Positions 10,166 to 33,200 of a stretch of 43,452 nucleotides of DNA are shown piece by piece (positions within the stretch are counted from its first letter, which is position 1; the number at the start of each line of letters is the position of its first letter). Made by a program: the position numbers and the translations under genes. The notes below the pieces were generated by a model that did no database searches, was not told the DNA's origin, and worked only from the letters and a program-made list of their open reading frames with translations. Source of the stretch: Actinomycetota bacterium (GTDB taxonomy: Bacteria; Actinomycetota; Geothermincolia; Geothermincolales; RBG-13-55-18). The stretch spans positions 1 to 43,452 of the forward strand of contig JAQVFR010000031.1 in assembly GCA_028697145.1 (NCBI GenBank), read 5' to 3'.

Positions 10166-10921
10166 TCACAGCTCGATGGCCATGCCCTCCGCGGCCAGCT
10201 CGACCTTGCCGTCGAAGCTGGAACGGGCGTCCTCGAGGGCGCGGTCTCCGCTCAGGGTCGGCCAGAGATGGGTGAGCAGGAGCGTCCCTACGCCCGCTTC
10301 CGCCGCCGCCTCGCCCGCCTCGGCGGCGAAGAGATGGCCCTGCATCCTGTTCCTCACCTGGCTGGTGAAGGTGGCCTCGCAGATGAAGAGGTCCGCGCCC
10401 CGGGCCTGTTCGACAAGGGCCGCGCAGAGGTCGGTGTCGCCCGAGTAGCATACCACCTTACCGTCACGGGATATCCTGTATATCAGGGAGTCGATCGCCC
10501 CGTGCGCGGCGGGCAGGGCCACGATATCAAAACCGGCGATGCCTTGCGGGACCCCGGGGCGCACCCCGCGCAGGTCGAGGGACCGCATGAACTCTTCCCT
10601 GCTCCCCGCCTGCAGCGGGCTGGTTATGACCTCGGATGCGTGCGGCGGGGCGAGAAGGGGCAGGGGATCCACCTCTTTCTCCCAGAACCTCCTGGCGGTG
10701 CAGAGCCCGTAGATATCCACGTAGTGGTCGTAGTGCATATGCGTGAGGGCGAGGCCACCGAGCCCGTCCGGGCGCACGTGCTCGAGGAGATTGGCGAGGG
10801 CGCCCGAGCCCAGGTCCACGACGAGGTTGCCCTCCGCGTTCTGAAACAAGTACCCGCTGCAGGCCCTTCCCGCCCCTGGATATCCGCCGGAACTGCCGAG
10901 GACCGTTACCTTAAAGCCCAT
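10166..10921 (-). CDS. RNase Z-like metallo-beta-lactamase fold hydrolase
   Basis: A 251-residue metallo-beta-lactamase-fold protein. VTVLGSSGGYPGAGRACSGY at the start is typical of the RNase Z/phosphodiesterase-like branch. The zinc motif is LTHMHYDHYVDIYGL (HxHxDH), with further ligands in AAHGAIDSLIYR, CYSGDTDLC and the C-terminal LLLTHLWP. The full set suggests an active binuclear zinc hydrolase. Length is too short for a complete long-form tRNase Z and the exosite arm is not obvious, so a small-molecule phosphodiesterase or lactonase function is as likely. Two ATGs lie in tandem (10924 and 10921); the second has the better 6-nt spacing from AGGAGG. Confidence 0.8.
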   Translation of the reverse strand: MGFKVTVLGSSGGYPGAGRACSGYLFQNAEGNLVVDLGSGALANLLEHVRPDGLGGLALTHMHYDHYVDIYGLCTARRFWEKEVDPLPLLAPPHASEVITSPLQAGSREEFMRSLDLRGVRPGVPQGIAGFDIVALPAAHGAIDSLIYRISRDGKVVCYSGDTDLCAALVEQARGADLFICEATFTSQVRNRMQGHLFAAEAGEAAAEAGVGTLLLTHLWPTLSGDRALEDARSSFDGKVELAAEGMAIEL

Positions 10922-11080: not shown

Positions 11081-11854
11081 ATGCCCGGCGATTTCCTCTC
11101 CGGCGTGGAACGTTCGAACGCCTCCATCGGGGACCTTTCCTTCAAGCTGCCGGTGATAATCAAGGAAGCGCGCATCATCTCGGCCGTCTTTCCCGCGTCA
11201 GCGAAAAAGCTGCGCGCGCTCATCCCGGACAAGAACCTGGTCCCGGCCCAGCTGCTGCCGGGCATGGGGCTGGTCCAGCTAACCGCCTACGAATACAGCG
11301 ACACCGACATGGGGCCGTTCAACGAGTTCTCCGTCGTCATCCCCCTCTACATGCCTGGTTTCCCCAAGCTCCCCTTCTATAATCTCAACAAGGCCAGGAC
11401 CACGCGCGAGGTGCACAACTTCCTCCTCCACCGCGCGGCGACCTCCGAAACCGCGGTGCGCATCCTCGGGGAACACCACCTCTGGCCGGAGTTCCCGGCC
11501 TCTATAGAATTCAGCGAGGACGAGGGCTGGCTGACCTGCGAATGGAAGGAGGGGGACGATCTCATCTGCCTCCTGCGCGGCCGCAAGATACCGGCAAAGC
11601 ATATGGGCGTGGTGAAGATCTTCATTTTTACCCCCCGGCACCCGCATGCCCAGCGTGCCGACATCAATCCCGACCAGAGCGTCACCACCCGCGGCAGTGA
11701 AAACGCCGAGCTGTCACTGGGTTCTTCCCATCCCATCGCAGCGGAGCTCTCCGAGACGCTGGCATCCACCAGGGCGCGCATGTACACCTACGGGCCGCGA
11801 TGGCAATTGATCGCCTACGGACCACAGCCTTCGCGCGGGGACACGGCGGGATAA
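11081..11854 (+). CDS. Acetoacetate decarboxylase-fold protein
   Basis: A 257-residue protein of the acetoacetate decarboxylase superfamily. ARIISAVFPASAKKLRALIP and VPAQLLPGMGLVQLTAYEYS, followed by DTDMGPFNEFSVVIPLYMPG, match the conserved N-terminal half of that fold, including the acidic GPFNE motif of the active-site cavity. The Lys that forms the Schiff base in true decarboxylases cannot be assigned with certainty, so the reaction may be different. The reading frame stays open far upstream because of antisense GC bias, but AAGGGG lies 8 nt before ATG 11081 and the upstream part is antisense to the MBL gene. The LysR gene follows after 85 bp, whose operator overlaps this gene's stop codon. 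Confidence 0.75.
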   Translation: MPGDFLSGVERSNASIGDLSFKLPVIIKEARIISAVFPASAKKLRALIPDKNLVPAQLLPGMGLVQLTAYEYSDTDMGPFNEFSVVIPLYMPGFPKLPFYNLNKARTTREVHNFLLHRAATSETAVRILGEHHLWPEFPASIEFSEDEGWLTCEWKEGDDLICLLRGRKIPAKHMGVVKIFIFTPRHPHAQRADINPDQSVTTRGSENAELSLGSSHPIAAELSETLASTRARMYTYGPRWQLIAYGPQPSRGDTAG

Positions 11855-11891
11855 GCGGCCCCTGGTCTCGCTTATTAGTATCGCTTATAAT
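11851..11891 (+). promoter_or_regulatory. LysR-type operator with three half-sites over a -10 element
   Basis: ATAAGCG (11851-11857), 11 bp, then CGCTTAT (11869-11875) form an inverted pair; a second identical CGCTTAT lies at 11882-11888, 6 bp further, and overlaps a TATAAT hexamer at 11886-11891. An 11-bp gap between half-sites is the T-N11-A arrangement of LysR regulators, with the third half-site in the position of an activation or promoter-occlusion site. The LysR start codon is at 11940. The site assignment is inferred from spacing and position. Confidence 0.65.
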
Positions 11892-11939
11892 CTATTCATC
11901 GTCATGGTCCGGTCATCGCGGAGGGGAAGCCTTCATCCC

Positions 11940-18040: not shown

Positions 18041-18104
18041 GTGCCTGAGGCACGAGGCGAGGCTTGACCCCAGTGCCTGAGGCACGAGGCGAGGCTTGAC
18101 CCCA
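18041..18104. repeat. Two perfect 32-bp tandem repeats
   Basis: The unit starts GTGCCTGAGGCACGAGGCGA and ends GGCTTGACCCCA; copies are at 18041-18072 and 18073-18104, followed by a partial third (ATGCCT). TGCCTGAGGCA inside each unit is an 11-bp hairpin. The ending CTTGACCCCA resembles the outer ends of the inverted-repeat elements at 27.2-32.9 kb. It separates two convergent genes. Confidence 0.85.
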
Positions 18105-26812: not shown

Positions 26813-26994
26813 GACCACTCCTTTCCCCGACACGATCCGTAGATATTCTACCTCATCGTGCACACCTCCATGTCCGCTCCAACAATCCTTGCATATACAT
26901 ATCCCCACCTGCCCCTTGCCCGCCCGCCTGCACGCCCCTCCCGATCCATAACCCACGTCCGCGCATCCCCGTGCGATTCATAACCCGCCGACTT

Positions 26995-27106
26995 GGCTCA
27001 TGCGTTGCGTTTCGCGCCTGCGGCGCGAAATGTCAAGGCTGAGCCCATACCCACCTGTCAAAGCAGAGCGACGCGCAGCGCTGTGTGCCGGGATTTATCC
27101 TGGCAC
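26995..27106. repeat. REP-like hairpin cluster
   Basis: GGCTCA (26995-27000) and TGAGCC (27040-27045) flank a stronger inner hairpin: TTTCGCGCC (27010-27018), TGC, GGCGCGAAA (27022-27030). A second hairpin follows: GTGCCGGGAT (27085-27094), TT, ATCCTGGCAC (27097-27106), with one G-T pair. The region between 26813 and 27220 contains no supported gene; these structures are its only notable content, apart from the AT-rich start of the adjacent element. Confidence 0.6.
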
Positions 27107-27220
27107 CAATTGCCATTACCTCAGACAAGCGTATCAATATATAGCCACCCCAACCGTTTGAGACCACGCCCCTCCCAGGGCAACGCCGGGAAGAACATGG
27201 ACCACCCCGGATTCATACCT

Positions 27221-27307
27221 TGGGGCCACGTTTTGCATGCTCGCGACAAAATCCCTGGTGCCAACAGGCGACATACCGCGGTATGCAAAAAACAAGACCT
27301 GACCCCA
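27221..27307. mobile_element. Inverted-repeat element, copy A (87 bp)
   Basis: The right end, CATACCGCGGTATG (27272-27285, perfect palindrome) followed by CAAAAAACAAGACCTGACCCCA (27286-27307, here split as CAAAAAACAAG and ACCTGACCCCA), recurs exactly at 32865-32900. The left end TGGGGCCACGTTTTGCATGC is a shorter, diverged inverted match. No coding capacity. It lies directly before the terminator of the fad operon. It looks like a non-autonomous MITE/REP-type element. Confidence 0.75.
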
Positions 27308-27310
27308 TAA

Positions 27311-27341
27311 AAAAGCGGCCCCCGCGAGGGGGGCCGCTTTT
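27311..27341. terminator. Terminator of the fadJ/fadA operon
   Basis: AAAAGCGGCCCCC (27311-27323) pairs with GGGGGCCGCTTTT (27329-27341) in a 13-bp stem. A-tract on the left and T-tract on the right make it functional in both directions. It ends 12 bp before the stop of the minus-strand fadJ-like gene (27353), so it terminates that operon. Confidence 0.9.
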
Positions 27342-27352
27342 CGTCTCGTTCT

Positions 27353-29395
27353 CTACGCGTCGGGGTGGAACTTCTTCCCCTTGACTTTCTCGGAGTAACC
27401 GGCGTAGTCCAGGTAGCGGGTGAGGCCGCCCATGTAGAAGGGGTAGCCTGCGCCGAAGATCATGCAGATGTCGATCTCCTCGGGCGCTCCCACCACGCCG
27501 TCGTCCAGCATGCGCCAGCACTCGTCGGCCAGCGCCTCGCTGACGCGGTCGCGCATCTCCTGGGCTTCGATCTTCTTCGGCGGGTCGGCCTGCTTCCAGA
27601 ATTCGCGCACCTCCGGGTCCACCTGCCCGTCGGGCCCGTAAACGCCCGACTTCTTGCGCGCCACCAGCTCCTTGAAGTTCTCGCTCACCACGTAGCGGTC
27701 CGGGAAGGCGTCCGCCAGGGTCTCGTTGGTGTGCAGGGCGATGGCGGGACCCACCAGGGCCATGAGCACGAAGGGTGGCATGGGGCCGCCCATCGCCCAC
27801 AGCGCATCGTCCACTTCCTTGAAGTCGTTGCCCTCGTCCACCAGCTTCAACGTCTCCACCATGGAGCGCAGCAGCAGGCGGTTGACGATGAAGGCCGGGG
27901 CGTCCTTGCACAACACGCAGCGCTTGCCCAGTTTCCTGCCGGTGTCGAAGGCGGTTATGAGGGCGGGGTCGCTCGTCTTCTCCGCCTTGACGATCTCCAG
28001 CAGGGGCATGGCCGCCACCGGGTTGAAGAAGTGGAAGCCCACCACGCGCTCGGGATGTTTAAGGTCGGAGGCCATCTCGGTCACCGAGAGCGACGAGGTG
28101 TTGGTGGCCAGGATGCAGGTCTCGGATACGTGCTCCTCCAGCTCACCGTAGACCTTCTTCTTGATGGGCATCTCCTCCAGCACGGCCTCGATGACGAAGT
28201 CGCAGTCGGCCATGTCCGCGTAGTCCAGGGTCGGCTCCACCAGATTCAGCAGCCACGGCACGGAGTCCTTGTCGATGCGGCCCTTCTCGGCCTGGCGGTT
28301 GATCTCCTGCTCGACGTAGCCCATGCCCTTGTCCACGAACTCCTGCTTGATGTCCTTTATGACCACGGGCACCTTCATGCGGCGCAGGAATAGCACCGCC
28401 AACTGGCTGCCCATGAGGCCCGCGCCCAGGATGCCCACCTTGCGCACCGGCAGGGGGGCGCCTTCGGGCACGCCCACCGGCTTCTTGGCGCGGCGCTGGG
28501 TAAGGTCGAAGGCGTAGGCTCCGGCCTGCATCGGGGGCGAGGGGATGAGCGTGGCCAGGGCTTCGTCCTCCAGGGCGAATCCCTCCTCGATGGTGTTGTC
28601 TTTCGCTGCGGCGATGTTGTCGATGGCGATGTAAGGCGCCTTGGAGTTGCCGTGCACCTTGGAGTCGGCCACCGCCCTGGCCTGCTCGACCAGGGCGTCC
28701 AGGTTGGACCAGTCAGGCTCCGTCCTCTCCACCTTCTCCGTGCCCTGCAGGATGCCCACGGTGAACTCGAAGGTCTTGTCGAGGAAGTCCACGGGCTCGA
28801 AGAGGCGGTCGGCGATGCCCAGCTCGAAGGCCTTCTTGCCGTTGATCATACGGTTGTTGTTGAGGGCGTTGTGGATGATGATCTGCAGCGCCTTCTCGGG
28901 GCCGACGAGCTTGGGCAGCAGGGTGGTGCCGCCCCATCCCGGGATGAGCCCCAGGAAGCACTCGGGGAAGCCCACCGCGGCCGCGCCGGGGGAGATGGTG
29001 CGGTAGTCGCAAGCCAGCGCTATCTCCAGCCCGCCCCCCAGGGCAACGCCGTTGATGGCGCCCACCGTCGGGTAGGGCAGGTCGATGATGCGCTTGAAGG
29101 CGGCATGGCCGGTCTGCGCCACCTCCAGGGCGAGTTCCCGCGTCTTCACCTCGGGCACCATGGTCAGGTCGGCGCCCGCCCCGAAGATGAAGGGCTTGCC
29201 CGTGAGGATGAGGGCCTTGACGTCGGGCTCGGCCTCGACGCGGTCCATGCATGCGTTGAGGCTGGCCATGCCGCCCAGGCCGAAGCTGTTGGGCTTGCGG
29301 TAGTCCTCGCCGTTGTCCATGGTCACGATGCAGATCTTGCCGGCCGGCGAGTCGTTATAGGTCTCCTTAAACTGGGTTACCAGTTCCTCGGGCAT
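27353..29395 (-). CDS. Enoyl-CoA hydratase/3-hydroxyacyl-CoA dehydrogenase (FadJ/FadB-like)
   Basis: A 680-residue bifunctional beta-oxidation enzyme. Residues ~15-200 form the crotonase domain: GKPFIFGAGADLTMV, the oxyanion-hole pair around GVALGGGLEIALACDYRTI, and ECFLGLIPGWGGTTLLPKLV with the catalytic Glu. Residues ~320-680 form the NAD-dependent dehydrogenase: VGILGAGLMGSQLAVLFLRR for NAD binding, VGFHFFNPVAAMPLLEIV with the catalytic His, and DAPAFIVNRLL. AAAGGAGG lies just before the ATG. It is downstream of the thiolase (26-bp gap) in the same operon, which would form an alpha2beta2-type trifunctional complex. The length is slightly shorter than E. coli FadB (729). Confidence 0.9.
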   Translation of the reverse strand: MPEELVTQFKETYNDSPAGKICIVTMDNGEDYRKPNSFGLGGMASLNACMDRVEAEPDVKALILTGKPFIFGAGADLTMVPEVKTRELALEVAQTGHAAFKRIIDLPYPTVGAINGVALGGGLEIALACDYRTISPGAAAVGFPECFLGLIPGWGGTTLLPKLVGPEKALQIIIHNALNNNRMINGKKAFELGIADRLFEPVDFLDKTFEFTVGILQGTEKVERTEPDWSNLDALVEQARAVADSKVHGNSKAPYIAIDNIAAAKDNTIEEGFALEDEALATLIPSPPMQAGAYAFDLTQRRAKKPVGVPEGAPLPVRKVGILGAGLMGSQLAVLFLRRMKVPVVIKDIKQEFVDKGMGYVEQEINRQAEKGRIDKDSVPWLLNLVEPTLDYADMADCDFVIEAVLEEMPIKKKVYGELEEHVSETCILATNTSSLSVTEMASDLKHPERVVGFHFFNPVAAMPLLEIVKAEKTSDPALITAFDTGRKLGKRCVLCKDAPAFIVNRLLLRSMVETLKLVDEGNDFKEVDDALWAMGGPMPPFVLMALVGPAIALHTNETLADAFPDRYVVSENFKELVARKKSGVYGPDGQVDPEVREFWKQADPPKKIEAQEMRDRVSEALADECWRMLDDGVVGAPEEIDICMIFGAGYPFYMGGLTRYLDYAGYSEKVKGKKFHPDA

Positions 29396-29421
29396 TTCTT
29401 ACCTCCTTTCCTCTCTCGTCC

Positions 29422-30612
29422 CTAGCTCTGAACGTTCTCGAAGATGATGGCCGCGCCCTGTCCCAGGCCCACGCACATGGTGGCCAGGCCGTACTTCGCC
29501 TCGGGGTGCTCACCGAAAAAGTAGGCCAGCTGGGCCATGAGGCGGCAACCGGAGGAGGCAAGGGGATGCCCGAATGCGATCGCGCCGCCCCAGGGGTTGA
29601 GCCTGGGGTCGTCCAACAGCTTCATCCCGAATTCCTCCATGAACACGATTGCCTGTACCGCGAAAGCCTCGTTGAGCTCGATGACGCTGAGATCGTCGAA
29701 TTTCATGCCCGCCCTCTCCAGCACCTTGTGGGTGGCGGGCACCGGGCCGAGTCCCATGACCTCCGGCTTCACCGCTGCGAAGGCATACTGCACCAGGCGC
29801 ATCTTCGGCTTGAGCCCGTATTCCTTCACCGCCCTCTCCGAGGCCAGTATTACACCGGCGGCTCCGTCGTTGAGGCCCGAGGAATTTCCCGGTGTCACCC
29901 TGCCCTTGACGCGGAAGGGATAGCGCAGGCCTTTCATCTCCTCCAGGGTGGCTTCGGGCCTGGGCTGCTCGTCCTTATCCGACACCTTCCAGCCCTCGCC
30001 GCTCCAGGTGGTCATGGGGACGATGATATCCTTGAACTTCCCTTCGTCCAGCGCCTTTTTCGCCTTGCGCTGGCTGAGGATGGAATACTCGTCGCACTGT
30101 GACTGGGTGATATGCGGGTACATGTCGTGCAGGTTCTCGGCGGTCATGCCCATGTTCAGCGCGCTCTGGTCCACCAGCTTCTCAGACATGAAGCGAGGGT
30201 TGGGGTCGGCTCCCTCGCCCATGGGGTGATGGCCCATGTGCTCCACGCCGCCGGCCACGATGAGGTCGGCCGCGCCCACCTGGATCTCCGACGCCCCGAA
30301 ACTGGCGGAGGTCGCGCCCCCGGCGCACATGCGGTCCACGGAGCACCCCGGCGTGGTCACCGGCAGGCCGGACAGGATGGCCGTGGTGCGGCCCATGGTG
30401 AGGCCCTGGTCACCCCACTGCGTGGATGCCGCCCAGATATTATCGTCGATCTTGTCCTTCGGGACCTCGGGATTTCTTTCCAGGAGAGTCCGGATCACCT
30501 TGACCACCATATCATCCGCCCTGGTATTGGCAAATGCCCCGTTTGGCCTGGCTTTACCGAAGGCGGTGCGGCAGCCGTCAATGACATATACTTCCTGCAA
30601 TTCCCTGGCCAT
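29422..30612 (-). CDS. Acetyl-CoA C-acyltransferase (FadA-like thiolase)
   Basis: A 396-residue thiolase. The nucleophilic Cys is in CSVDRMCAGGATSASFGA (about residue 88), the catalytic His in NPWGGAIAFGHPLASSG, and the second Cys in ATMCVGLGQGAAIIFE near the C-terminus; LNEAFAVQA is the NEAF motif. It cleaves 3-ketoacyl-CoA in beta-oxidation or forms it in the reverse direction. The ATG at 30612 follows AAGGAGGGG; the longer reading frame has no support. First gene of the operon with the fadJ-like gene. Confidence 0.92.
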   Translation of the reverse strand: MARELQEVYVIDGCRTAFGKARPNGAFANTRADDMVVKVIRTLLERNPEVPKDKIDDNIWAASTQWGDQGLTMGRTTAILSGLPVTTPGCSVDRMCAGGATSASFGASEIQVGAADLIVAGGVEHMGHHPMGEGADPNPRFMSEKLVDQSALNMGMTAENLHDMYPHITQSQCDEYSILSQRKAKKALDEGKFKDIIVPMTTWSGEGWKVSDKDEQPRPEATLEEMKGLRYPFRVKGRVTPGNSSGLNDGAAGVILASERAVKEYGLKPKMRLVQYAFAAVKPEVMGLGPVPATHKVLERAGMKFDDLSVIELNEAFAVQAIVFMEEFGMKLLDDPRLNPWGGAIAFGHPLASSGCRLMAQLAYFFGEHPEAKYGLATMCVGLGQGAAIIFENVQS

Positions 30613-31213
30613 AACTTCCCCTCCTTCTAGATTTCTGGGGCGCCGCCTCGCGGGCGCCCGGGCTTCAGGGATATTATTGGATTCTATGTAAAGGGGAGCG
30701 GTCCCCGGCATTCAATGCGGTTACGGGAACGTGAAGCCCTTGGGAGAATTGCTGCGTCCATTGCTGCGACACTTTCCATTGCATTTACTTTCCATCGTTA
30801 ATTATATTTTCCCGGCCGTGCCAAGGCAATAACATGCAGGTATTAACCTCCTCAAAAAGCGCAGATAAAAACCCCTGCGAGGGCGCCTCCGCCTTCGCGG
30901 TGTCGTCTGCCGCGGGCCAGTTTACTATATACCCACTTGGCGGATTATCATGCCAAGATGCCGTAAATGGGGTCAGGTCTTGTTTTTTGCATACCCCGGT
31001 ATGTTAAAGGATGCTTCCACGAAATCCCCGTCCATATGCAGGGGTTTCAGAAAGCCCCTGCATCCCATAATATGTAAAAAGCAAGACCTGGCACCCTGTT
31101 GGCCATCGCCTCCTGAGATCCGGTCTTTCCCATAGTGCGGGGTCGAAATCCGTGTCGGCCATATCGTCACCACTATCAGGCGCCCATGATATGACTTGGA
31201 CTATCATGTAGGT
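30613..31213. other. Intergenic region with AT-rich patch and inverted-repeat element
   Basis: No gene is supported in these 601 bp. A GGGGA-GCGG-TCCCC hairpin (30693-30706) sits within a possible minus-strand promoter for the thiolase (TTGAAT at 30710-30715, TTTACA at 30687-30692, 17-bp spacing; weak). An AT-rich stretch at 30780-30850 contrasts with the surrounding GC content. The inverted-repeat element B occupies 30968-31096. Confidence 0.6.
30968..31096. mobile_element. Inverted-repeat element, copy B (129 bp)
   Basis: The left end reads TGGGGTCAGGTCTTGTTTTT and continues TGCATACCCCGGTATG (to 31003). The right end CATAATATGTAAAAAGCAAG plus ACCTGGCACCC (31066-31096) is its imperfect inverted copy. 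Inside, ATGCAGGGG (31037-31045) pairs with CCCCTGCAT (31056-31064). No reading frame of significance. It is related to elements A and C and is oriented so that both ends are recognisable. Confidence 0.75.
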
Positions 31214-32338
31214 ATGGACATAACCTTGTGTAATCGCAGCTCGCCTAGCCTGCACGACTTCCCCTACCGGGGGGAGAAACGCAAGTGCTATCACAAATGG
31301 ATTGTCAACGTCACGCCTCCGGGGAGGGGCAACTGCTTGCACGACTGCCTCTACTGCTATGCCAGGGACGCGGTGTATTCCCGAAAGAAGGAAGGGGCAA
31401 TGCTGATCTATTCCGACCTGGCCTCCACCGTGGAGAAGGAGCTGACCAGGCTGGAGCTGTGCCCCCCGGTCTCCATATCCAACGCGACCGACCCCTGCCA
31501 GGACGTCCCCGAGCTGCGCCAGGCTGTAAAGGACCTGGTGGGGGTGCTGGTAACGTGGGGGGTGAGCTTTCACGTCATCACCAAGGGAGACCCTTCTTTC
31601 CTCGCCGAGGTGGACGGCTTTCCCGGCAGGGGGCATTTCTTCCTGGCCGTGACCATCGAGGGGCCGCCGGAGGTGCTGGGCATGCTCTCGCCGCGGGCCC
31701 CATCCTACGAGAAAAGGCTGGCGTCCCTGCGCTGGGCTTCCTCGCTGGGCCTTCCCGCCCTGGTGCGCCTCGACCCGGTGGTCCCGCCCCTGTGGCGTTC
31801 CCTCTACGGCGAGGACTGGGAGGAGGCGGCCTCGCTGGTCGTAGCGGACTGCGCCGCCGCGGGAGCCGGGCACGTGGTGAGTTCCACCGGGCGTTTCACC
31901 GCTGCCACCAGGGGCGCCCTCCAGGGACTGGTGCGGGACGGAGGAGGGTCGAAGGGGGACGGCATGGAAGAGTGCTACGTCTACGACCGCTCTTATACCT
32001 CCAGCGGCTACATGCTCCGCCGCGGCCTGCGCCTCGACTTCCACCGCCGCATGCGTGACGTGGCGCGGGAGCACGGCATGACCTACGCCGTATGCCAGGA
32101 ACTGAGCGCGGAGGAGGCTGACACCCCCGTTCTCCCCCATTGCGAGGCCTTTCCCATGCCCTTCTCCCGCCGTGTGGGGACGCGGGAGTTCGCGCCTCTC
32201 GCCGGCTGCACGGCCAATTGCCATGTCGCCTGCGCCGGCCTGGACGACCCGCCGTGCGGCAGGCCGGAACTCGCCCTCCCGCAGCCGTTCAGACCATCCT
32301 CGCTCAAGATGCCCCGCCAGGCGTCCCCGTCGAAGTGA
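31214..32338 (+). CDS. Radical SAM protein, SplB-like
   Basis: A 374-residue radical SAM protein. The iron-sulfur motif is CLHDCLYCYA (Cys-x3-Cys-x2-Cys, about residues 36-43), in the context NVTPPGRGNCLHDC, which is the layout of spore photoproduct lyase-like (SplB) proteins rather than of MoaA or queuosine enzymes. SISNATDPCQDVPE and FHVITKGDPSFL fit the SplB-like barrel. The C-terminal CTANCHVACAGLDDPPCG could hold a second metal site. Actual UV-repair function is not shown; the family includes many proteins of unknown substrate. ATG 31214 is preceded by AGGT only, so the start is uncertain. Nothing follows in its operon with certainty. Confidence 0.75.
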   Translation: MDITLCNRSSPSLHDFPYRGEKRKCYHKWIVNVTPPGRGNCLHDCLYCYARDAVYSRKKEGAMLIYSDLASTVEKELTRLELCPPVSISNATDPCQDVPELRQAVKDLVGVLVTWGVSFHVITKGDPSFLAEVDGFPGRGHFFLAVTIEGPPEVLGMLSPRAPSYEKRLASLRWASSLGLPALVRLDPVVPPLWRSLYGEDWEEAASLVVADCAAAGAGHVVSSTGRFTAATRGALQGLVRDGGGSKGDGMEECYVYDRSYTSSGYMLRRGLRLDFHRRMRDVAREHGMTYAVCQELSAEEADTPVLPHCEAFPMPFSRRVGTREFAPLAGCTANCHVACAGLDDPPCGRPELALPQPFRPSSLKMPRQASPSK

Positions 32339-32449
32339 AACCGCTGCCGCGCCTCCCGCAGGGGAACCGCTTATAATCATAATCACATATACAAGCACGC
32401 TTTCCCCGGGGAGGATATCGTCTTCTACCCCCAGGCAATAACCGAGGCC

Positions 32450-32773
32450 ATGGGCACGATACCCTTCGAGAAGAAGATAGACTATTACGCCGGTTGTTAC
32501 CGGCTGCACCGCAGGTTCTCGCCCGTGCCCATGGACCTGTACTCCACGGAGGAGGTCTTCTCCCGCCTGGAAGGCCTGGAGGTCAACCGCATCGACGTCC
32601 CTCGGTGCTGCTACAAGCCCGATGGCGCCGCCCATATCGCCGCGAGCGTGAGAACGGACACCCTGGTGACCGCATGCACCGGGTGTTATGGACAGGCTTT
32701 GACGGTCTTGCCACCCGGAGGCGGCACCGAGGTGCTCATGCTTCCCGAGCTGGTGGAGATGGCTCTCTCCTGA
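32450..32773 (+). pseudogene. CCG-domain (HdrB/GlpC-like) protein, probably truncated at the 5' end
   Basis: The 107-residue frame holds one cysteine-rich CCG domain: YYAGCYRLHRR (C16), VPRCCYKPDGAA (C53, C54), TACTGCYGQA (C76, C79). Complete CCG domains bind a non-cubane [4Fe-4S] cluster, as in heterodisulfide reductase HdrB; the second interval (21 residues) is shorter than usual. The reading frame upstream of the ATG also looks coding, with GC-rich third positions in about 18 codons (32396-32449; e.g. FPGEDIVFYPQAITEAM), but there is no ATG, GTG or TTG start there back to the stop of the radical SAM gene in the same frame. I infer loss of the N-terminal coding part; a functional short protein starting at 32450 is the alternative. 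Confidence 0.55.
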
Positions 32774-32900
32774 GGGGTCACGTCTTGATAATTGCATTGA
32801 GTGGATAGCTACCTGAATATAAAATACCTGCTCAATCGGGGTTAGTTTAAGCGAGAGATCGATACATACCGCGGTATGCAAAAAACAAGACCTGACCCCA
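32774..32900. mobile_element. Inverted-repeat element, copy C (127 bp)
   Basis: The right end (32865-32900), CATACCGCGGTATG then CAAAAAACAAG and ACCTGACCCCA, is identical to that of element A. The left end GGGGTCACGTCTTGATAATT continues GCAT and is an imperfect inverted copy. It starts directly after the stop codon of the CCG gene (32771-32773), so it may have joined or cut that gene's 3' flank. The interior is AT-rich and non-coding. Confidence 0.75.
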
Positions 32901-32905
32901 AAAGG

Positions 32906-32929
32906 AAGGAGGCGCCGCAGCGCCTCCTT
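32906..32929. terminator. GC-stem hairpin next to element C
   Basis: AAGGAGGCGC (32906-32915), loop CGCA, GCGCCTCCTT (32920-32929): a perfect 10-bp stem. On the minus strand it is followed by a T-rich run (CCTTTT), so it could terminate leftward transcription; rightward it lacks a T-run. Confidence 0.45.
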
Positions 32930-32937
32930 AAAGGGGA

Positions 32938-33035
32938 GCTATAAGCCACCGGCGGATAGGGCTATTTCAGGGGGTGGAATGTGCTGATTCCATCTCATGC
33001 TATAGGGCATATGGGGTTGGCCGGCAGCTTATAGC
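32938..33035. repeat. 98-bp segment bounded by 16-bp inverted repeats
   Basis: GCTATAAGCCACCGGC (32938-32953) and GCCGGCAGCTTATAGC (33020-33035) pair at 14 of 16 positions. The interior has no reading frame. It may be another small mobile or structured element; the ends are unrelated to elements A-C. The 32901-33200 gap otherwise holds a terminator and AT-rich DNA. Confidence 0.6.
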
Positions 33036-33050
33036 GTAGGGCTTTTTTCA

Positions 33051-33081
33051 ATGTCCAAAAAAATTCAGCCCCGAGCGGGGC
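33051..33081 (-). terminator. Intrinsic terminator for the lipid kinase gene
   Basis: GCCCC (33068-33072) and GGGGC (33077-33081) form a stem with loop GAGC. On the minus strand it is followed by TGAATTTTTTTGG, a strong U-run. It lies 120 bp past the stop of the minus-strand gene ending at 33201. Confidence 0.7.
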
Positions 33082-33200
33082 ACTCTATCTCTTTCAGATT
33101 TCGGTCCCACCCGTTGTTTTGAATCTAACAGGTGCGTATATCGGTGTCAAGCAAATCATACATGCTTATCCAGCTATTATATTGACATATATCATTCTCC

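Follow-up and report, generated by a model that had tools for sequence, protein, structure and literature searches.

Three inverted-repeat elements in an Actinomycetota genome as probable non-autonomous mobile elements of the TIRYT type

What are the three related inverted repeats that lie in a 43,452-nt stretch of an Actinomycetota genome (hereafter the window), and which enzyme, if any, has moved them? A sequence-only reading of the window had described them as inverted-repeat elements without a transposase gene and had likened them to MITE or REP sequences mobilized in trans by a Y1-type transposase. All three are present, and each consists of a pair of inverted arms, one strong and one weak. 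Element 1 (class A1; 27221-27307, with an 85-nt core at 27222-27306) is on the minus strand, with the strong arm at its right end and the weak arm at its left; element 2 (class A3; 30968-31096, with a 127-nt core at 30969-31095) is on the plus strand, the strong arm being its left end; and element 3 (class A3; 32773-32900, with a 126-nt core at 32774-32899) is on the minus strand, with the strong arm at the right. The core coordinates grow by one base per side if the outer base is included. The strong arm has the sequence GGGGTCAGGTCTTG-TTTTTT-GCATACC..GGTATG (in element 1, read on the minus strand, GGGGTCAGGTCTTGTTTTTTGCATACCGCGGTATG), and the arms opposite are weaker versions of it (GGGGCCACGTTTTG, GGTGCCAGGTCTTG and GGGGTCACGTCTTG). 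The right ends of elements 1 and 3 are identical, as had been noticed, over 37 nt (27271-27307 and 32864-32900) rather than 36. In the whole window, 10 arms with up to three mismatches were found against 1.46 expected, a number reached by none of 100 shuffles, and six of the 10 are the ends of elements 1-3.

Elements 1 and 2 indeed stand on either side of fadB/fadA (Pfam assignments). The weak head of element 3 begins immediately 3' of the TGA of a 107-aa gene (32450-32773) that had been thought to look truncated; this impression does not hold, as relatives free of the element align with this stretch almost as far as its end. Element 1 also forms one end of a longer repeat (26981-27306, strand not assigned), which comprises, besides the A1 unit, a spacer and another, diverged inverted repeat near 26995-27045; portions of this longer unit are found again across the genome with 77-93% identity (e.g., C32:60705-60912, 93%; C43:15060-15381, 81%).

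Are these elements confined to the locus, or do they belong to a dispersed family? The 15-nt arm TGGGGTCAGGTCTTG, with up to two mismatches, occurs 129 times in the 2.98-Mb genome (62 forward, 67 reverse), and the reversed-motif control occurs five times; the family is thus dispersed in dozens of copies, not in fewer than a few. In the stretches fetched around the listed arm sites at least 70 inverted pairs could be read, or at least 69 after C26:140-504, where two families are mixed, was left out. They fall into four length classes: A1 (84-85 nt, at least 35 pairs), A3 (119-127 nt, at least 20), A2 (54-66 nt and more diverged, at least 10) and A4 (97-107 nt, at least 4). Mutations are present in many of the arms, and the sequence of the classes is variable.

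The strong arm is made up of the head GGGGTCA, a guide (GGTCTTG), a T-rich linker and a small hairpin (ATACC..GGTAT). This hairpin is found in the arms of the present clade, and the guide differs between transposase lineages. A perfect hairpin of at least 5 bp follows the guide in 43 of 56 distinct arms of this genome (shuffled mean 2.45, largest 5) and in 42 of 181 distinct arms of other genomes (11.75 in shuffles, largest 19), the latter set sharing the sampling bias of the cross-phylum scan described below; since the enrichment elsewhere is only moderate, the internal hairpin is not essential to this kind of element. As single-stranded DNA, elements 1-3 fold better than their shuffles (z of -2.67, -5.28 and -3.14, respectively). 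Among 29 distinct A1 and nine distinct A3 copies, no pair was altered on both sides; the copies are alike by descent, and this neither proves nor disproves the fold. The motif GT[AG]G was absent, by eye, from the hairpin foot of the listed arms, whose head is GGGGTCA.

The window contains no Y1 transposase gene, as had been stated, and the predicted source in trans was found on contig C16, where a Y1 gene carries the same elements on both flanks. It lies between two A3 elements (10611-10736 and 11786-11911), five more A elements being present in the stretch of C16 that was read, and its last codons (MGSGLVFSSLK) are encoded by the arm ATGGGGTCAGGTCTTG.. of the downstream element. The protein has 285 aa with the motifs NHYH and YVVLNP. 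The genome holds two further Y1 genes, on contigs C4 and C41; all three are without internal stops, each has a repeat of its own, and in all three the stop codon falls inside the downstream repeat or on its border. PF01797 matches the three proteins (C16 with 53.5 bits, above the cut-off), and the NCBIfam model for REP-associated tyrosine transposases, NF047646 (cut-off 80 bits), gives 83.9 bits for C16 and 60.1 and 60.6 for the other two. The helix-turn-helix or DnaA_C-like C-terminal domain of TnpAY1 subclass 2.1 (discussed below) is represented by no more than a trace of HTH_38 in C16 (E 0.077), by Bac_DnaA_C below the cut-off in C4 (E 0.0011) and by no match in C41. A sequence search of the PDB gave no match.

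The C4 gene is enclosed by inverted arms GGGGTCAGCCCTTAACATT (family B), which occur 41 times in the genome (control 0) and are almost uniform, 37 of the 41 being free of mismatches over 19 nt. The C41 gene lies between direct pairs of GGGGTCAAGCCTCGCCTCGTGCCT, found 107 times (control 0); two direct copies of this third repeat, with a 32-nt period, are also present in the window (18048-18104). GGGGTCA opens all three repeat families, and the sequence after this head differs between them. Heads of the GGGGWSAS type (GGGGTCAG) are inverted around the C16 and C4 genes, while the C41 repeat GGGGTCAA matches GGGGWSAS except in its last letter. At two loci, C19:20800-23000 and C40:15500-17400, inverted family B arms with a spacing of 1.1-1.6 kb have between them an rsgA-like GTPase gene and an alpha/beta-hydrolase-like gene (named by eye from their translations), which may be chance neighbours or passenger genes.

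To which known system do these pairs of gene and repeat correspond? The name TIRYT was introduced on the basis of sequence in 2013 (Di Nocera et al. 2013, PMC3733652) for a Y1 gene with long terminal inverted repeats, the motif GGGGWSAS, overlap of the repeat with the gene 3' end in some cases, arms dispersed as singles, dimers or groups, and several such genes per genome with different repeats around each, all of which resembles the present case. Compared with that description, in which the dispersed families are termed moderately abundant, this genome has three co-resident transposases, each with a dispersed family (at least 129, 41 and 107 arms), the arms of the present clade contain an internal hairpin, and the third family (GGGGTCAAG) violates the last S of the motif and consists mostly of direct tandems. 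According to Quentin et al. (2018, PMC6006769), TIRYTs probably correspond to TnpAY1 subclass 2.1, with which the C16 protein shares the HuH motif NHYH, the Y motif Y..LNP and its length; the same study reports that no REP-like sequences were found near subclass 2.1 genes, whereas hairpin-bearing arms flank such genes here. Judging from the sequences, which show the features tested apart from the C-terminal domain, for which there are sub-threshold traces in C16 and C4, the elements are new members of the TIRYT or "TIRtron" kind (TnpAY1 subclass 2.1).

REPINs and GTAG REPs (Bertels and Rainey 2011, PMC3116915; Corneloup et al. 2021, PMC8266576) are similar in having a unit of inverted short arms with a short head outside the hairpin, sites shortly after gene ends and a Y1 gene of low copy number that acts in trans; however, GTAG REPs have GTAG at the hairpin foot, where the present head is GGGGTCA plus guide. 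The earlier likening to MITE/REP sequences moved in trans by a Y1 enzyme was thus right in kind, given the copies, the Y1 gene and the relatives free of the elements, although the elements are of the TIR (GGGGWSAS) kind and not GTAG REPs. With IS200/IS605 the Y1_Tnp Pfam family is shared (PMC6006769), but Y---NP here takes the place of Y---Q, and the ends are inverted and symmetric. The kind of element is already known but little studied, and its form here is rich.

Another important question is whether head, guide and transposase belong together beyond this genome. The 15 genomes of the GTDB family, which also includes Ca. Solincola daggyaiensis, contain 23 Y1 genes, 15 of them with inverted GGGGTCA heads on both sides, three with heads on one side (L184, L190, L194) and five with none (L183, L185, L186, L188, L193; the locus L186 ends at a contig boundary). 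In seven of 34 loci (L032, L117, L128, L157, L184, L187, L191) the TGA of TGACCCC itself serves as the stop codon. The identity of the transposases correlates with that of the 13 nt after the head (Spearman 0.40, reached in 0 of 10,000 permutations; 18 genes, with guides taken by eye from the flanks of the Y1 loci). Of 198 phylum genomes, nine contain at least five head-to-head dimers (GGGGTCA-N58-88-TGACCCC), and a Y1 gene is present in all nine, compared with 56 of the 189 others (p 3e-5); with at least four dimers, a Y1 gene is present in 13 of 15 (p 1.2e-5), both thresholds having been set after the counts were known and the reversed control never exceeding three. The two exceptions (G015 and G145), with dimers and no Y1 gene, seem to be coincidental matches within coding regions. 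One relative (G003, 78% complete) contains 14 arms with no Y1 gene detected, and another (G007) has Y1 genes and no arms of the A type.

A longer exact arm occurs in at least 92 stretches from Aminicenantes, Omnitrophota, Acidobacteria, Elusimicrobia, several Proteobacteria and Actinomycetota, a sample of loci biased by the requirement for TTTTGCAT; same-type transposases beside the exact arm outside the GTDB family share 43-53% identity with the C16 protein. The assignment to TIRYTs also explains why a repeat arm recurs almost letter for letter in several phyla. Publications containing the arm string were unrelated, as judged by their titles.

Where do the elements settle? Strong ends of A3 elements lie 0-6 nt after the stop of an open, codon-biased frame in 11 of 20 cases and within 80 nt in 15, the figures for weak A3 ends being 3 and 7 of 20 and those for strong A1 ends 3 and 18 of 35; because the A1 counts next to stops are low, the stop-codon effect is mainly one of A3. 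The distances are flatly distributed for random positions, which, here and in the terminator test, are mostly coding and not matched to intergenic ones. Since GTAG and CGTC REPs are likewise described as close to gene ends by Di Nocera et al. (2013, PMC3733652), this placement is one that REPs have as well. Two elements of the window adjoin intrinsic terminators on the minus strand: the T-run of the fad operon terminator (27315-27337) extends as far as the strong head of element 1, and the T-rich tail of the hairpin (32906-32929) that closes a conserved non-coding stretch ends at the strong head of element 3. Heads that follow a perfect 8-bp GC-rich hairpin by no more than 14 nt are enriched over such random positions both in this genome (4 of 61 against 11 of 3253, p 1e-4) and in others (4 of 268 against 51 of 13,111, p 0.024). 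Terminator targeting as a general rule was rejected, as so few heads sit behind hairpins.

If the elements are mobile, related genomes should differ at the three sites. Seven relatives could be compared for elements 1 and 2 and eight for element 3, and the same element was present in none of them, so that the positional conservation expected of a regulatory RNA was not seen at any site; the flanks of the relatives have diverged, and empty sites therefore cannot be defined to the base. At the site of element 3 a GGGGTCA head is absent in five of the eight relatives, one relative of the same genus (G005) has a different 85-nt element with the guide GGTCTTT at the identical junction behind the terminator, and heads of other types number three in G006 and one in G002. 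The site of element 1 is free of heads in four relatives (G005, G006, G013, G001) and carries two heads of other types in each of G010 and G012, while in G014 one head lies at the fadB end, beyond the stretch counted. There, an arm of that genome's own type follows directly after a stop codon by which fadB seems to be shortened by a few codons, as though the original end of the gene had been replaced by an insertion. Arms follow the fad terminator in two more species (L118 and L134) as well, but these loci were retrieved via the arm itself and are no independent test of position. The site of element 2 has no heads in six of seven relatives and two of another type in G013. Element positions are thus not conserved, and some sites carry elements of other lineages; shared ancestry with replacement is possible for elements at the same sites. 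The intergenic stretch of G014 equivalent to the element 2 site, between fadA and a radical-SAM-like gene, holds a CRISPR-like array of ~27-nt repeats (ATCTCCCCCGCGCGCGCAAGGGGAGAC) with decaying copies.

Can the heads themselves indicate where cleavage occurs? The last six flank bases are repeated within the preceding 25 nt at 46 of 329 heads with 80 nt of flank (14%), compared with 138 of 10,976 random positions and 95 of 6080 G-runs without a following TCA. The duplications are tandem: an additional flank copy precedes k head bases, after which the flank begins again. Counted without regard to k, they number 51 against 4.0 expected, with k of 0-6 in 33, 7 in 10, 8 in three, 9 in one, 10-13 in none and 14 or more in four. 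Nearly all breakpoints thus fall in the first nine head bases, with a peak directly after GGGGTCA and a broad group at 0-4. The peak is possibly a cleavage footprint, and a cut behind ..TCA is plausible because one TnpA-REP is reported to cleave at CA and CT (Corneloup et al. 2021, PMC8266576). Polymerase slippage at the base of the inverted repeat is a live alternative, which could yield short duplications and accounts for the low k values, but not obviously for the peak at k=7. Literature on TIRYTs, on RAYTs/REPINs and on duplications or footprints yielded no description of such a footprint, which is not proof of its absence. The duplications offer a concrete, testable guess at the cleavage site.

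Taken together, these data make it very probable that elements 1-3 are non-autonomous, REPIN/MITE-like mobile elements of a TIRYT-type (TnpAY1 subclass 2.1, RAYT group 1) HUH/Y1 tyrosine transposase encoded on C16, their mobility being inferred. The C16 transposase would bind the folded single strand, head and guide directing its choice of cleavage sites; it would cut near the outer ends, perhaps directly after GGGGTCA, and the single-stranded element would be reinserted, in many cases immediately after a stop codon and in some after a terminator. A bolder and distinctly tentative extension is that GGGGTCA might serve as the common catalytic end of a TIRYT system that is very widespread, with the transposase cutting right behind it (at CA), failed or repeated reactions leaving tandem flank plus GGGGTCA, with the guide and not the head setting specificity and the 3' ends of transcription units as the usual target; nearly the same arm in several phyla would then point to one mobile repeat system with guide-set specificity. 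Three transposase/repeat pairs with a common head and different guides in one genome amount to a natural swap experiment, and these parallel families and their shared head, together with the possible footprint, are of specialist interest.

Could the elements instead be fossils, once moved by a Y1 enzyme and now spread by recombination and slippage alone? We consider this improbable. In its favour, many arms are mutated and the class sequences vary, present movement rests on inference and not on direct evidence, and short tandem duplications at heads can arise by slippage at the hairpin base. Against it speak the three Y1 genes without internal stops, the near-identical family B arms, as in a young spread of this sister family, and the lineage-specific elements at one identical junction in two congeners.

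Inverted ends and size would also suit MITEs of a classical DDE transposase with terminal inverted repeats, the Y1 gene having been caught between copies by chance. Target-site duplications of 3-9 nt were not in excess over 500 shuffles in 56 elements, and on this ground the DDE reading was rejected; IS200/IS605 elements are likewise not known to produce a target-site duplication. It is further made very unlikely by the inverted heads on both sides of 15 of the 23 family Y1 genes, with gene-specific guides, by the co-occurrence of heads and Y1 genes across the phylum and by the correlation of guide and Y1 sequence. That the elements are conserved regulatory RNAs or terminators of neighbouring operons is scarcely credible and was rejected on position and missing compensatory change, for although elements 1 and 3 adjoin terminators and the single strands fold better than shuffles, position is not kept in 7-8 relatives, an Rfam search of the window gave no match, no compensatory changes occur among the copies, and dozens of further copies exist in the genome.

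A separate candidate for a small RNA lies on the minus strand next to element 3, at 32902-33150 of the window. Compared with Rfam it reaches no gathering score (c-di-AMP riboswitch, 16.1 bits against 38 required). A TTGACA-like box is conserved upstream of it, a terminator closes it, and its closing stem shows a paired A-T to T-A change; its core of ~100 nt is nearly invariant in eight genomes of the family, in which the genes next to it are mostly 72-80% identical.
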